A stretch of DNA of 36,689 nt from Saprospiraceae bacterium (GTDB taxonomy: Bacteria > Bacteroidota > Bacteroidia > Chitinophagales > Saprospiraceae): contig JALZVK010000395.1 in NCBI GenBank assembly GCA_023301005.1, forward strand, positions 1-36,689, given 5' to 3'. Positions 31,754 to 36,601 of the stretch are shown piece by piece. The position numbers were made by a program, and so were the translations under genes. Under the pieces are notes generated by a model, which was given only the letters and a program-made list of their open reading frames with translations, searched no databases and was not told the DNA's origin. Numbering within the stretch: position 1 is the first letter of the stretch; each line of letters opens with the position of its first letter.

Positions 31754-34700
31754 ATGAAAAAGGTAATAATGAGTTTACTCGCTATCGTGTATACGATATG
31801 CGCAATAGAGGTGAGTGGTCAGAGCCTAAATGCAACCAACTCAACACAGCTCCAAAAAATAAGTCCTCGACAATTTGTTGAGAACCACCAAGATTTTCAG
31901 GATACTAAACTGGAAGAAGATTACATTGTTGTAGTTTCTTTTGAGCAGTTACCTACAGAAGTAATGTTAACTACATTGAATCAAGCAGGTATCGAATTAC
32001 TTAATTTTCATTCGAAAAAATCATACCTAGCAAAAGTTCCTACTTCAGTAAAAGTAGAACAGTTAGAAAATAATAGAATAGTAACTTTACGTAAGTATAA
32101 TGTTATAGAAAAATTATCTCCAGATTTAAAATCTAATCAACTTCCAACTTGGGCTATCAAATCAACAGGAACTATTGATGTAGCAATTATGCTCATTAAT
32201 AATACTACAACTCATCGTCAACAATTTATCGACGAATTTAACATCACTAATATTCAGTCTTCTTTAAAAGGAGGAGCAATTATTATAGGACGAGTAGAGC
32301 AAGATGATTTAGTAAATATTGCAGCATCACCAATGGTTGCACATATAGATGCTATTGAGCCTGAAGTACAACCATTCAACCAAGAGAACAGAGCTATCCA
32401 AAAAGTAAATATTTTACAGGCATCAACTTTAGGTGGAAGAGATTTGCAAGGAGAAGGAATAGTATGTGGAGTAGGAGATGGAGGAGAGTTAGGCGATCAC
32501 ATTGATTTTAATGGTCGAGTAATTAATTATGCCAATGGAACTTATGGTTCATTTGGAGCACATGGCGACCATGTATCTGGTATCGTAGGCTGTGCAGGAA
32601 ATCTAAATCCAATACATAAAGGGATGGCACCAGCATCTACCTTATTGATCCAAAAGACAACGTCAATTGTCAATAATGCTCAAGCATATTATGACGACCA
32701 CGAAATGGTGATGACTAATAATTCTTATGGTGTAGGTTATAATTGCGAATCCAATGGAACTTATAATTATTCAAGTAACAACTTAGATTGGCAGAGTCGA
32801 GAGATGCCAGGTTTACTTCATGTTTTTGCAGCAGGTAATAATGGATTTTCTACTTGTGGAAATTACCCAACAGGTTTTAGGTCAGTATTAAGATACTACC
32901 AAAGTGCAAAAAATGTATTGACAGTTGGTAATGTAAAAGAAGACCAAACACTTAATGTCGGTAGTAGTAAAGGGCCCGTATCAGATGGACGTATCAAACC
33001 TGAAATTTGTGGAGTAGGTACGAATGTAAATTCTACTGGAGCTAGTTATAATTACTTCGTAGGTTCAGGTACAAGTATGGCTTCACCTTCAGTTGTAGGT
33101 ACGATGGCATTAGTTAATGAGCGATATAGACAATTAAATAATGATGAAATTCCTAGCGGAGCATTGATGAAAGCTATCGCTTGTAATACTGCTGATGACC
33201 TTGGAAATCCTGGACCTGATTATTCATATGGGTTTGGTTTGATAAATGGACTAAGAGCTGTAGAGTGTCTTGAAAATAACAATTACGATTCTGATGATAT
33301 ATCAAATGGTGATACTAAGACTTTTAATTTTACAGTTCCAGCAAGTGCGGGAGAATTAAAAGTGATGTTGTACTGGCATGATAAAGAAGCTCCTGCTTAT
33401 GCTCCTAAAGCATTGATTAATGATTTAGATTTAAAAGTAACAGCACCGAATGGTGATGACTATTTACCGTGGGTTTTAAATTCTGATACTTTGCATGTAG
33501 ATGATATTGCAATTCGAAAAATAGATACACTTAATAATATAGAACAAGTAACTATTGATAATCCGACTGCGGGAACATATACGATTACTGTAAATGGAAC
33601 TAGTGTTCCAGAAGGACCACAAGAGTTTTATATAGTATATGAGTCTGTTAATGCTGAAGTTAAATTGACTTATCCATTTGGAGGTGAAAGTTTTCAACCT
33701 GCGACACATCAATTTATTCAATGGCAAACTGATGTAAATAATTCGAATGATTTTAAAATCGAATACTCATTAGACGGAGGGAACAATTGGATAGAGATAG
33801 CAAATAATGTAGAAAATAATAAAAGAAGTTATGCGTGGAATATTCCAAATGTAACGACCGAAAATGGATTTATAAAAATATCAAAAATCGGAATCTCCGA
33901 TTCCGATGCTAATATTATTTCTTTTAGTATATTAAATCAACCGACCAATCTACAAGCAGTTGCTATATGCGAAGGTCATTTGGATTTGACTTGGGATGCG
34001 ATTACAGAAGCGACTTCTTATGAGATATTTAGAATGAATGATATTGAGATGGAAGTAATTGATACTGTATTTACCAATCTATATTCTACAGGAAGCCTTA
34101 CAGTAGGAGATGAGTTTTGGTATGCAGTAAGAGGAATTACTACTAATGGAAATAAAACAGAACGTTCGATAGCAGAGAAAATGATTCCTCAAGCAGGAGG
34201 TGCTTGTCCTTGGAATTTTGATATAAAACTAAAAGAAATAATCATTGCTGAAAAACGAGGAAGAGCACATACTTCTCTTTCTCTTGGTAATACAGAAACC
34301 ATTTCTATTGTAGTTAAGAATCTTGGTATCAACAATCTTGATGGTTTTGATATGAAATATAAAATCAACAATGGTGTAGCAGTTACGCAGACTGTCAACG
34401 AATCAATTCTATCAGGAGATTCTCTATTAGTGACATTTAATACCTCAGCAGATTTTTCGAATGGCGGTACTTACATTGTCAATGCTTATGTAGAAATCAA
34501 TGAGGATACAGATAATACCAATAACCAAATAGTAGGACAAACAGTCATCACACAATTGGCGAACGAACCTATCATTTTACCTTATGAAAAAGATTTTGAA
34601 AGTCTAACTCCGAGTTCATTTAAGGAACATACTATAGGATTAGATGGAATTGAGGAATGGGATTTTATGCCAGATGCGAATGGACTATTAGGATTTATTC

Positions 34701-35641
34701 AAGAGAGTACGAACAAATGTTTGGAGACCAATAGTTTTTCTAACAATAGTACTACGGAGGGAATTACTTTTACATTAAACATGACTAACTACGTTAGTGC
34801 TGATGATGTAAAATTAAATTTCGATTACAAATATGAATTTATGGACATCACAGGGTCAGGGGATTATTTATATATCCGAGGTTCTGATACTGATGATTGG
34901 ATTCAAATAGAAGAATTTTTTACTTACGGACATTGGGTCAATTCAGAAAATGAAATCAGTACTATTCTAGCCAATAACAATCAATCATTTTCGAGTAGTT
35001 TCCAAGTTCATTTTTCACAAGGAAGAAATACAGGATATGCGATAGATAATTTTTCTATCAGATCATTGATGCCTTTACCAATGGAGTTATCTTCATTCAC
35101 AGCACATAAAGATGGGAATGATGTGGTACTGAATTGGTCAACAGCATCAGAATTTAATAATGACAAATTTGAAATAGAAGTGGCAGAAGAACCACTTCCA
35201 TTAGATAACGATAATTTTAAGCGAATAGGAACGGTGTTCGGCAATGGCACAACAACAACTAACCAAAATTACACTTTTACTGATTTTACCCCATTGAAGT
35301 CCGGACATCGTTACTACCGCTTAAAACAATTTGATTTAGATGGAACATTTACTTACACCGATTTACGTGTAGTTGATTTTGAAATCAATAATCAAGTTAC
35401 CGTTTTTCCAAATCCATTTGAAAATGAAATTAATGTTTGGAATCTGAGAGAAGATATGCAACTCACAAATATCCAGGTTATGAATTCAATTGGGCAAATT
35501 GTATATGATTCTTATAACATTCAAAATACGGAACAACTATTAATTAATATGGAAGATGATATTCCAGCAGGAATGTATTTTTTAAGATTAATTAGTAATG
35601 AAGAGACTCAAACATTCCCAATTCTAAAAAAAGAGCAATAA
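31754..35641 (+). CDS. Secreted S8 (subtilisin-family) serine peptidase with FN3/CARDB/MAM-like regions and T9SS type A sorting domain
   Basis: Signal peptide; catalytic motifs VGDGGELGDHIDFNGRV, HGDHVSGIVG, GSGTSMASPSVVGTMAL; C-term VFPNPFENEINVWNL...GQIVYD...DIPAGMYFLRLISNEETQTFPILKKEQ. Confidence 0.93.
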   Translation: MKKVIMSLLAIVYTICAIEVSGQSLNATNSTQLQKISPRQFVENHQDFQDTKLEEDYIVVVSFEQLPTEVMLTTLNQAGIELLNFHSKKSYLAKVPTSVKVEQLENNRIVTLRKYNVIEKLSPDLKSNQLPTWAIKSTGTIDVAIMLINNTTTHRQQFIDEFNITNIQSSLKGGAIIIGRVEQDDLVNIAASPMVAHIDAIEPEVQPFNQENRAIQKVNILQASTLGGRDLQGEGIVCGVGDGGELGDHIDFNGRVINYANGTYGSFGAHGDHVSGIVGCAGNLNPIHKGMAPASTLLIQKTTSIVNNAQAYYDDHEMVMTNNSYGVGYNCESNGTYNYSSNNLDWQSREMPGLLHVFAAGNNGFSTCGNYPTGFRSVLRYYQSAKNVLTVGNVKEDQTLNVGSSKGPVSDGRIKPEICGVGTNVNSTGASYNYFVGSGTSMASPSVVGTMALVNERYRQLNNDEIPSGALMKAIACNTADDLGNPGPDYSYGFGLINGLRAVECLENNNYDSDDISNGDTKTFNFTVPASAGELKVMLYWHDKEAPAYAPKALINDLDLKVTAPNGDDYLPWVLNSDTLHVDDIAIRKIDTLNNIEQVTIDNPTAGTYTITVNGTSVPEGPQEFYIVYESVNAEVKLTYPFGGESFQPATHQFIQWQTDVNNSNDFKIEYSLDGGNNWIEIANNVENNKRSYAWNIPNVTTENGFIKISKIGISDSDANIISFSILNQPTNLQAVAICEGHLDLTWDAITEATSYEIFRMNDIEMEVIDTVFTNLYSTGSLTVGDEFWYAVRGITTNGNKTERSIAEKMIPQAGGACPWNFDIKLKEIIIAEKRGRAHTSLSLGNTETISIVVKNLGINNLDGFDMKYKINNGVAVTQTVNESILSGDSLLVTFNTSADFSNGGTYIVNAYVEINEDTDNTNNQIVGQTVITQLANEPIILPYEKDFESLTPSSFKEHTIGLDGIEEWDFMPDANGLLGFIQESTNKCLETNSFSNNSTTEGITFTLNMTNYVSADDVKLNFDYKYEFMDITGSGDYLYIRGSDTDDWIQIEEFFTYGHWVNSENEISTILANNNQSFSSSFQVHFSQGRNTGYAIDNFSIRSLMPLPMELSSFTAHKDGNDVVLNWSTASEFNNDKFEIEVAEEPLPLDNDNFKRIGTVFGNGTTTTNQNYTFTDFTPLKSGHRYYRLKQFDLDGTFTYTDLRVVDFEINNQVTVFPNPFENEINVWNLREDMQLTNIQVMNSIGQIVYDSYNIQNTEQLLINMEDDIPAGMYFLRLISNEETQTFPILKKEQ

Positions 35642-35750
35642 TGATCTAAAAAAAAAAGAGCTATTAGAGTTAATAATAGTGTATTGAAATAGAATATTCT
35701 CTTTCAACACGCCCAAAAAAGACTCATTTTTTCATTTCATAAAATTGTTG

Positions 35751-35785
35751 AGCATGATTTTTTAATTAAAATCATGCTTTTTTTG
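35751..35785 (+). terminator. Intrinsic terminator after the S8 peptidase
   Basis: AGCATGATTTT-ttaatt-AAAATCATGCT followed by a T-run. Confidence 0.8.
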
Positions 35786-35937
35786 TTTTTTTTAGCTCAT
35801 TTTTATCATAATATTATTCACAAAATGCAATTTAATTTCACATTTAATTAGATATAAAATACTGGTAATCAATTGGTTATGTTTTTAATTATAATTGTAA
35901 TTAAATATTTTAACGTTCACAATGCTATGTTTTTGTC

Positions 35938-35969
35938 TTTGTTGAAGGGGAATATCGCTCTTATATTTG
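35938..35969 (+). promoter_or_regulatory. Near-perfect Bacteroidetes promoter (TTTG-N20-TATATTTG)
   Basis: TTTG 35938-35941, 20-nt spacer, TATATTTG 35962-35969; no ORF of usual size downstream. Confidence 0.65.
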
Positions 35970-36073
35970 TTATGTAATTAATGAGGAAGTAATGATTTAA
36001 AGCGGAAGTAAGGAAAACATCTCGATTAAATTCGAGAGCTGCCGACCAAAAGGCGTTGGCAATTTCAAATTGG

Positions 36074-36097
36074 ATATGTTCATGGGATTATAATTTG
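36074..36097 (+). repeat. 24-nt direct repeat, copy 1
   Basis: ATATGTTCATGGGATTATAATTTG. Confidence 0.95.
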
Positions 36098-36101
36098 CAT
36101 A

Positions 36102-36147
36102 GTAGCGAGTCTTACTTCTTAAAAAAGTATGACTCGCTACGCAAATA
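36102..36147 (+). terminator. Terminator of unit 1
   Basis: GTAGCGAGTCtTACTTcttaaaaAAGTAtGACTCGCTAC, then CGCAAATATTTTTT. Confidence 0.75.
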
Positions 36148-36240
36148 TTTTTTCACTCACATAATAAATTAAGTATTAAAATAGTTTATTAAGTGTTCGA
36201 TTTGACAAACTGATTAAAGAGCTTTTAAAAGCTTAAAAAT

Positions 36241-36264
36241 ATATGTTCATGGGATTATAATTTG
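36241..36264 (+). repeat. 24-nt direct repeat, copy 2
   Basis: ATATGTTCATGGGATTATAATTTG, identical to 36074-36097. Confidence 0.95.
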
Positions 36265-36272
36265 TTGTGGTT

Positions 36273-36309
36273 AGTCGCGTATTTTAAATACGCGACTTTC
36301 TATTTTTTT
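36273..36309 (+). terminator. Terminator of unit 2
   Basis: 25-nt palindrome AGTCGCGTATTTTAAATACGCGACT followed by TTTCTATTTTTTT. Confidence 0.75.
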
Positions 36310-36336
36310 AGGCAAATGTAAATTTTAAAAAAAATA

Positions 36337-36374: not shown

Positions 36375-36457
36375 GTTTAACTTTTGGGGATTGTTGAGGT
36401 TTTGAGTATAGTGGTTTTTATTAAGTAGATTATCTTATATGGAACAGCAGAGAGAGA

Positions 36458-36562
36458 CTTAGACACCTTGCGGGAGCAAGGAGCTAACGTAGTTCTAGCT
36501 CTACAATTGAAGGAACAAAAAATAAATCGTCGCTAGCGCACTTTGCTCCGCAAGGTGCTAAG
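36458..36562. repeat. 105-nt inverted repeat enclosing a smaller hairpin
   Basis: CTTAGACACCTTGCGGGAGCAAGG ... CTTTGCTCCGCAAGGTGCTAAG; internal GAGCTA-acgtagttc-TAGCTC. Confidence 0.7.
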
Positions 36563-36601
36563 TATTATAAATTTTTTTAAATAGATTTTAAGTTATTTAT
36601 A

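Follow-up and report, generated by a model that had tools for sequence, protein, structure and literature searches.

Several paralogous small RNAs (sRNAs) may share one region with which they pair with the starts of messages. The Qrr sRNAs of Vibrio are such a case, with several paralogues carrying a near-identical region that pairs with the start region, and they are separate single genes that are sigma-54-activated and Hfq-dependent. In Bacteroides thetaiotaomicron, the 14 paralogous FopS sRNAs share a core and block SusC-type mRNAs near the start codon; the members are individually intergenic, antisense or 3'UTR-derived, and the family is described as conserved within Bacteroidaceae (PMC11697453). 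In Listeria monocytogenes, the multicopy sRNAs LhrC1-5 are induced through LisRK and pair with the ribosome-binding/start region of the adhesin mRNA lapB, lowering its expression, by means of UCCC (CU-rich) sites in loops and in a single-stranded stretch (PMC4132741). We analysed a Saprospiraceae locus whose proposed mechanism resembles those of FopS and LhrC. It lies in a window of 36,689 nucleotides, the whole stretch of DNA under study, and it probably belongs to a multicopy, Saprospiraceae-specific family of base-pairing sRNAs, encoded as a promoter-driven array, with a core that is antisense to the start of an adhesin gene and likely lowers adhesin synthesis.

A conserved core repeated across Saprospiraceae

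The initial annotation had noted an identical 24-nt motif in two tandem sRNA-like units. Both exact copies of ATATGTTCATGGGATTATAATTTG are present on the + strand, at 36074-36097 and 36241-36264, and a pair of copies was found in none of 100 dinucleotide-preserving shuffles of the window, so the repetition is not due to chance. The shared block thus stands, with its extent revised, since the block conserved in the family (GGATATGTTCATGGGATTATAATTTGTT) is really 26-28 nt long and ends about where the following hairpin starts. Across 97 non-redundant units, conservation is limited to the 26 nt GATATGTTCATGGGATTATAATTTGTT and the flanks are near random. All 26 positions are strongly conserved, and positions 2, 6 and 13 vary only as C/T, G/A and A/G, respectively.

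Elsewhere in the draft genome to which the window belongs (448 contigs, completeness 67%), the 24-mer recurs exactly on contigs C107 and C427, and once with a single mismatch. Both contigs end inside a second tandem array and overlap in its sequence, the repeat being the probable cause of the break in the assembly. Allowing up to 3 mismatches, the 24-mer occurs in 122 of 150 Saprospiraceae genomes, the reversed control giving one match in all, and the samples of the order and the phylum outside the family were at the control (chance) level. Matches outside Saprospiraceae at this threshold were often antisense to gene starts, which we read as start-region composition. A GTDB scan with the exact 28-mer returned at least 118 stretches; among the 80 matches listed, the names were those of Saprospiraceae (Flavilitoribacter nigricans, Phaeodactylibacter, Lewinella) or broader MAG labels (Bacteroidia, Bacteroidota). 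A known ncRNA had been named as one possible outcome, but none of the 4227 Rfam families reached its gathering score in cmscan, and a low-threshold scan gave weak matches only. Our literature search found no paper containing the core string and none naming both Saprospiraceae and sRNA. Based on these sequence comparisons, the repeat is most likely the shared core of a previously undescribed tandem small-RNA gene family present in most Saprospiraceae genomes.

Deviating cores were also seen. Variant cores (TTTTCATGAGATTATGATTTG), considered as antisense targets, were nearly all further hairpin-bearing units and not gene starts. In some first units (L104:4680-4900; L152, L167, L179) a small hairpin inserted into the core divides it, as in GGATATGTTCA-ctacctacttcggtagttaaa-ATGGGATT, perhaps marking a degenerate or regulated unit. 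Three loci (L026, L045, L046) carry, between two normal units, a variant like TTTTCGTGAGATTACAATTTGTT after the half core AGGTCATGCTCATGGRATTA, which may represent another type of unit.

Array organization and promoter

The arrays run head-to-tail with 1-7 units at a median spacing of 163 nt, and the units of one cluster all lie on the same strand, where the reversed control scored none. A stable hairpin follows the core directly (mean z -5.0; z < -2 in 96% of 191 units) and its sequence varies from unit to unit, while those preceding the core are weaker (mean z -1.0). The hairpins described on either side of both cores in the window were all found, each with a different sequence (Table 1), and the stem after core 1 is able to extend into TTTGC at the end of the core. 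The suggestion of a site tied to termination held in part: of 73 last units, 35 have a T run immediately 3' of the hairpin, compared with 22 of 88 non-last units. The annotation's other suggestion, short RNAs that form a family around a conserved core, gains support from the family-wide conservation, the same-strand tandem arrays, the dedicated promoter and the strong, non-homologous 3' hairpins. General traits of multicopy base-pairing sRNAs are likewise recognizable at the sequence level, namely several paralogues per genome with a shared region and a predicted promoter and terminator of their own.

Table 1. Features of the array (35976-36310) and its upstream neighbour in the window
Feature	Position	Strand	Details	Basis
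Secreted S8 (subtilisin-like) protease gene	31754..35641	+	T9SS tail, 1295 aa; not a predicted target	
Terminator-like hairpin 3' of protease gene	35750..35779	+		Terminator scan
Array promoter	35916..35969	+	TTCACAAT 35916-35923, TTTTTGTCTTTGTT 35930-35943, TATATTTG 35962-35969	Match to 77-bp element before relatives' first units
Predicted 5' leader of transcript	35976..36019	+	Purine-rich, AATTAATGAGGAAGTAATG...	Leader start common to C107 array
Hairpin	36020..36037	+	TCTCGA-TTAAAT-TCGAGA	Transcript fold
Tetraloop hairpin 5' of core 1	36040..36061	+	TGCCGACC-AAAA-GGCGTTGGCA	Fold
Core 1, predicted pairing region	36072..36099	+	GGATATGTTCATGGGATTATAATTTGCA	Sequence comparison, shuffles
Hairpin after core 1	36102-36141; with T run 36102..36154	+	GTAGCGAGTC...GACTCGCTAC	Sequence, fold
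Hairpin separating units 1 and 2	36182..36212	+		Fold
Palindrome 5' of core 2	36220..36233	+	AGCTTTTAAAAGCT	Sequence, fold
Core 2	36241..36264	+	Identical to core 1 over 24 nt	Sequence, shuffles
Array terminator	36273..36310 (hairpin 36273-36297)	+	AGTCGCGTATTTTAAATACGCGACT then TTTCTATTTTTTT	Terminator scan

The promoter reported in the initial annotation, TTTG-N20-TATATTTG, is present and belongs to a longer conserved element, which in first units is rigidly spaced as TTCACAAT-N8-TTTTGTCTTTGTT-N20-ATATTTGTATTGTGAT. The start site near 35976 is placed by promoter spacing, and the leaders of most first units in related genomes are purine-rich. With a weight matrix, the element was recovered at more than 22 bits ahead of 85 of the 133 first units (about two thirds). 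In the scanned loci, 91 weight-matrix sites lay near arrays and 3 elsewhere; one of these three belongs to another array, with a split core, and the other two precede long secreted surface proteins. The exact promoter pattern, searched without the core, gave 54 matches in 90 genomes and none with the reversed control, and among 30 matches that were retrieved, 27 lie at the head of an array, while the remaining 3 all stand before one and the same gene, that of the adhesin. As this pattern was learned from the arrays, the array matches are expected; the adhesin gene as the sole other match is not. Many arrays also have an inverted repeat whose arms, TCACAAT upstream (window 35916-35923) and ATTGTGA close to the start site, are separated by about 50-55 bp; it is a candidate regulator site.

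Because the upstream protease gene has its own terminator-like hairpin, the array would be a separate transcription unit. Similar S8 proteases directly precede 23 arrays in the GTDB loci. Neither the start region of the S8 protease nor those of most other array neighbours are complementary to the core, and the protease-array linkage may reflect inherited gene order. The leaders of array-linked S8 protease genes contain C-rich runs. About 150 nt 3' of the array, parts of window 36430-36580 (~36459-36490, 36530-36567) recur on about 15 further contigs, in both orientations in the genome, and resemble REP- or MITE-like palindromes.

Complementarity of the core to adhesin gene starts

The predicted target encodes a T9SS-secreted adhesin-like protein of 810-890 aa with Ig/cadherin-type repeats and a T9SS tail, found in 86 of 110 genomes. 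When 416 gene starts were ranked by core pairing, blind to gene identity, adhesin orthologues took four of the top six places. The closer orthologues (n=32) had a mean pairing energy of -18.2 kcal/mol, versus -11.4 +- 1.6 kcal/mol for shuffled cores, with 0 of 300 shuffles as low; 28 of the 32 paired below -16 kcal/mol, against a mean of 2 of them with shuffled cores, and a control keeping TTCAT changed little (1/300). For the distant orthologues (n=32) the mean was -12.7 versus -10.0 kcal/mol, again with 0 of 300 as low (5/300 with TTCAT kept), and pairing was weak in about half of them. At least 11 contiguous pairs over the AUG were found in 33 of 64 adhesins versus 10 of 416 other genes. 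In one complete genome, of which 1.6 Mb was covered, the adhesin start ranked third by pairing among 2049 candidates. The adhesin start region reads AAATCC-ACGAACC-ATG-AAT-RTA-TYN; codon 3 has A at its wobble position in all but one of 32 genes, and most variation at coding positions 6, 7 and 11 still pairs with the core.

Arrays and adhesin genes are also linked by position and by occurrence. In 13 of 61 loci the adhesin gene is followed on the same strand, at a distance of 280-790 nt, by an array, and arrays are present in 80 of 86 genomes with the adhesin versus 9 of 24 without it (Fisher p 3e-8, a value inflated by shared ancestry, which the co-occurrence and shuffle tests leave in). Among the distant orthologues only, array presence was not significantly linked to pairing strength (p 0.20). 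In the window's genome, the adhesin gene is found on contig C243. There, ATGAACATAT is fully complementary to AUAUGUUCAU, and ATAATCT matches the latter half of the core, for a weaker total pairing of -14.1 kcal/mol; this gene is without an array-type promoter. The adhesin of the sister genome, one of the weakly pairing distant orthologues, keeps nine pairs only (-10.0 kcal/mol).

We also looked for other targets. The signature AAATCC-N3-12-ATGAAYRTAT matched 74 times and its control 17 times. Judged by where they lie, about 24 of the 74 are the adhesin and the rest are scattered, so this search found no second conserved target. Genes with signal peptides were not generally enriched among the predicted targets. 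Two other genes also scored well at their starts, a neighbour cluster resembling glutamine synthetase III (z -2.4, n=4) and an outer-membrane-type protein in one genome (G064). The 23S rRNA was rejected as a target, its complementarity to the core being weaker than that of most shuffles; 16S was not found in the genome used. As the core is stricter than one imperfect target demands, further partners probably exist.

A model of adhesin control and its relation to known sRNAs

In the model that we favour, the dedicated promoter would transcribe the two-unit tandem array, the transcript perhaps being processed, and each unit would present, just before a stable hairpin, a nearly invariant, mostly unpaired 26-nt core that is antisense to the adhesin mRNA start region from about -25 to +11. 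There, GAUAUGUUCAUGG would pair with CCAUGAAUGUAUC over the start codon, GGAUU with AAAUCC, and UUUGUU with (A)GCAAU further upstream, leaving a conserved bulge between. Such pairing would most likely block ribosome entry by start-codon occlusion and so reduce adhesin synthesis; we infer repression because the pairing site covers the start codon. Since the adhesin gene has the same promoter type in some genomes, sRNA and target would switch together there. A wider proposal, which we advance tentatively, is a family-wide circuit in which polycistronic sRNA arrays and the adhesin use one promoter type that serves little or nothing else, giving dosage-multiplied control of adhesion. The shared promoter type is possibly served by a specific sigma factor or regulator.

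Two alternatives keep the arrays as RNA genes. In one, the arrays act as sponges, the core binding an RNA-binding protein and the multiple sites titrating it as CsrB does, with the adhesin match being secondary. Tandem multiplicity fits titration, and strong conservation at all 26 positions is stricter than in most pairing seeds. However, a sponge leaves unexplained both the conserved antisense match to one gene and the fact that the adhesin gene alone shares the promoter, and the restricted changes at core positions 2, 6 and 13 suit base pairing, so we regard this reading as unlikely. Slightly less probable still is a base-pairing sRNA that activates or stabilises the adhesin mRNA, or whose main targets are other genes. 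The array-type promoter of the adhesin in some genomes could mean joint positive action, and the glutamine synthetase III-like cluster and the G064 protein might fit as targets, but pairing over the start codon is the usual place of translational block, and secreted proteins in general do not stand out among the predicted targets.

Two further readings seem to us highly improbable. The motif might code for a micro-peptide, MFMGL or MGL, or act as a minigene that stalls ribosomes; the initial annotation had pointed out the micro-ORF, and ATG GGA TTA TAA does occur in most units. Its conservation, however, is not that of a coding sequence: wobble positions vary no more than the rest, GGA can be replaced by AGA, about a third of units lack the first ATG (its G is retained in 68 of 97), and at least 7 of the 97 have no stop. 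Equally improbable is a DNA element, such as a recombination site, an IS end, a REP or an integron attC-like repeat; repeated, spaced units with hairpins would suit it, but the fixed promoter, the strict strand consistency and the non-homologous hairpins do not. Nothing like an IS end was seen, and the phage and plasmid collections held no homologue of the core, so the IS or integration end that the annotation had kept in mind finds no support.

Activated sludge and marine particles, both common habitats of Saprospiraceae, are settings where attachment matters. Because the model for this family predicts both a target and the pairing with it, and includes a specific promoter, it is directly testable in cultured strains, for example of Flavilitoribacter or Lewinella, and, if confirmed, would provide a handle on adhesion in wastewater flocs. 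Among known systems, Qrr resembles the arrays in having paralogues with a near-identical start-pairing region, and differs in being encoded by separate genes. The likeness to LhrC lies in multiple copies and in unpaired sites directed, by prediction here, against the start region of an adhesin mRNA; in contrast to LhrC, the arrays use a single 26-nt core, in which no TCCC occurs, and belong to a different phylum. FopS, compared by description, comes from the same phylum and also has many paralogues with one core and pairing, here predicted, near the start codon of a surface protein. Unlike FopS, the present family forms tandem arrays with one dedicated promoter, is found in Saprospiraceae only, and has as its predicted target an adhesin, not a SusC homologue; the occurrence in Bacteroidaceae typical of FopS/GibS is not shared by the core, which is at chance level in the phylum sample. 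If the model is confirmed, start-codon control of surface proteins by multicopy sRNAs, as exercised by FopS in Bacteroides, would extend to a further class of Bacteroidota, where the gene architecture differs.
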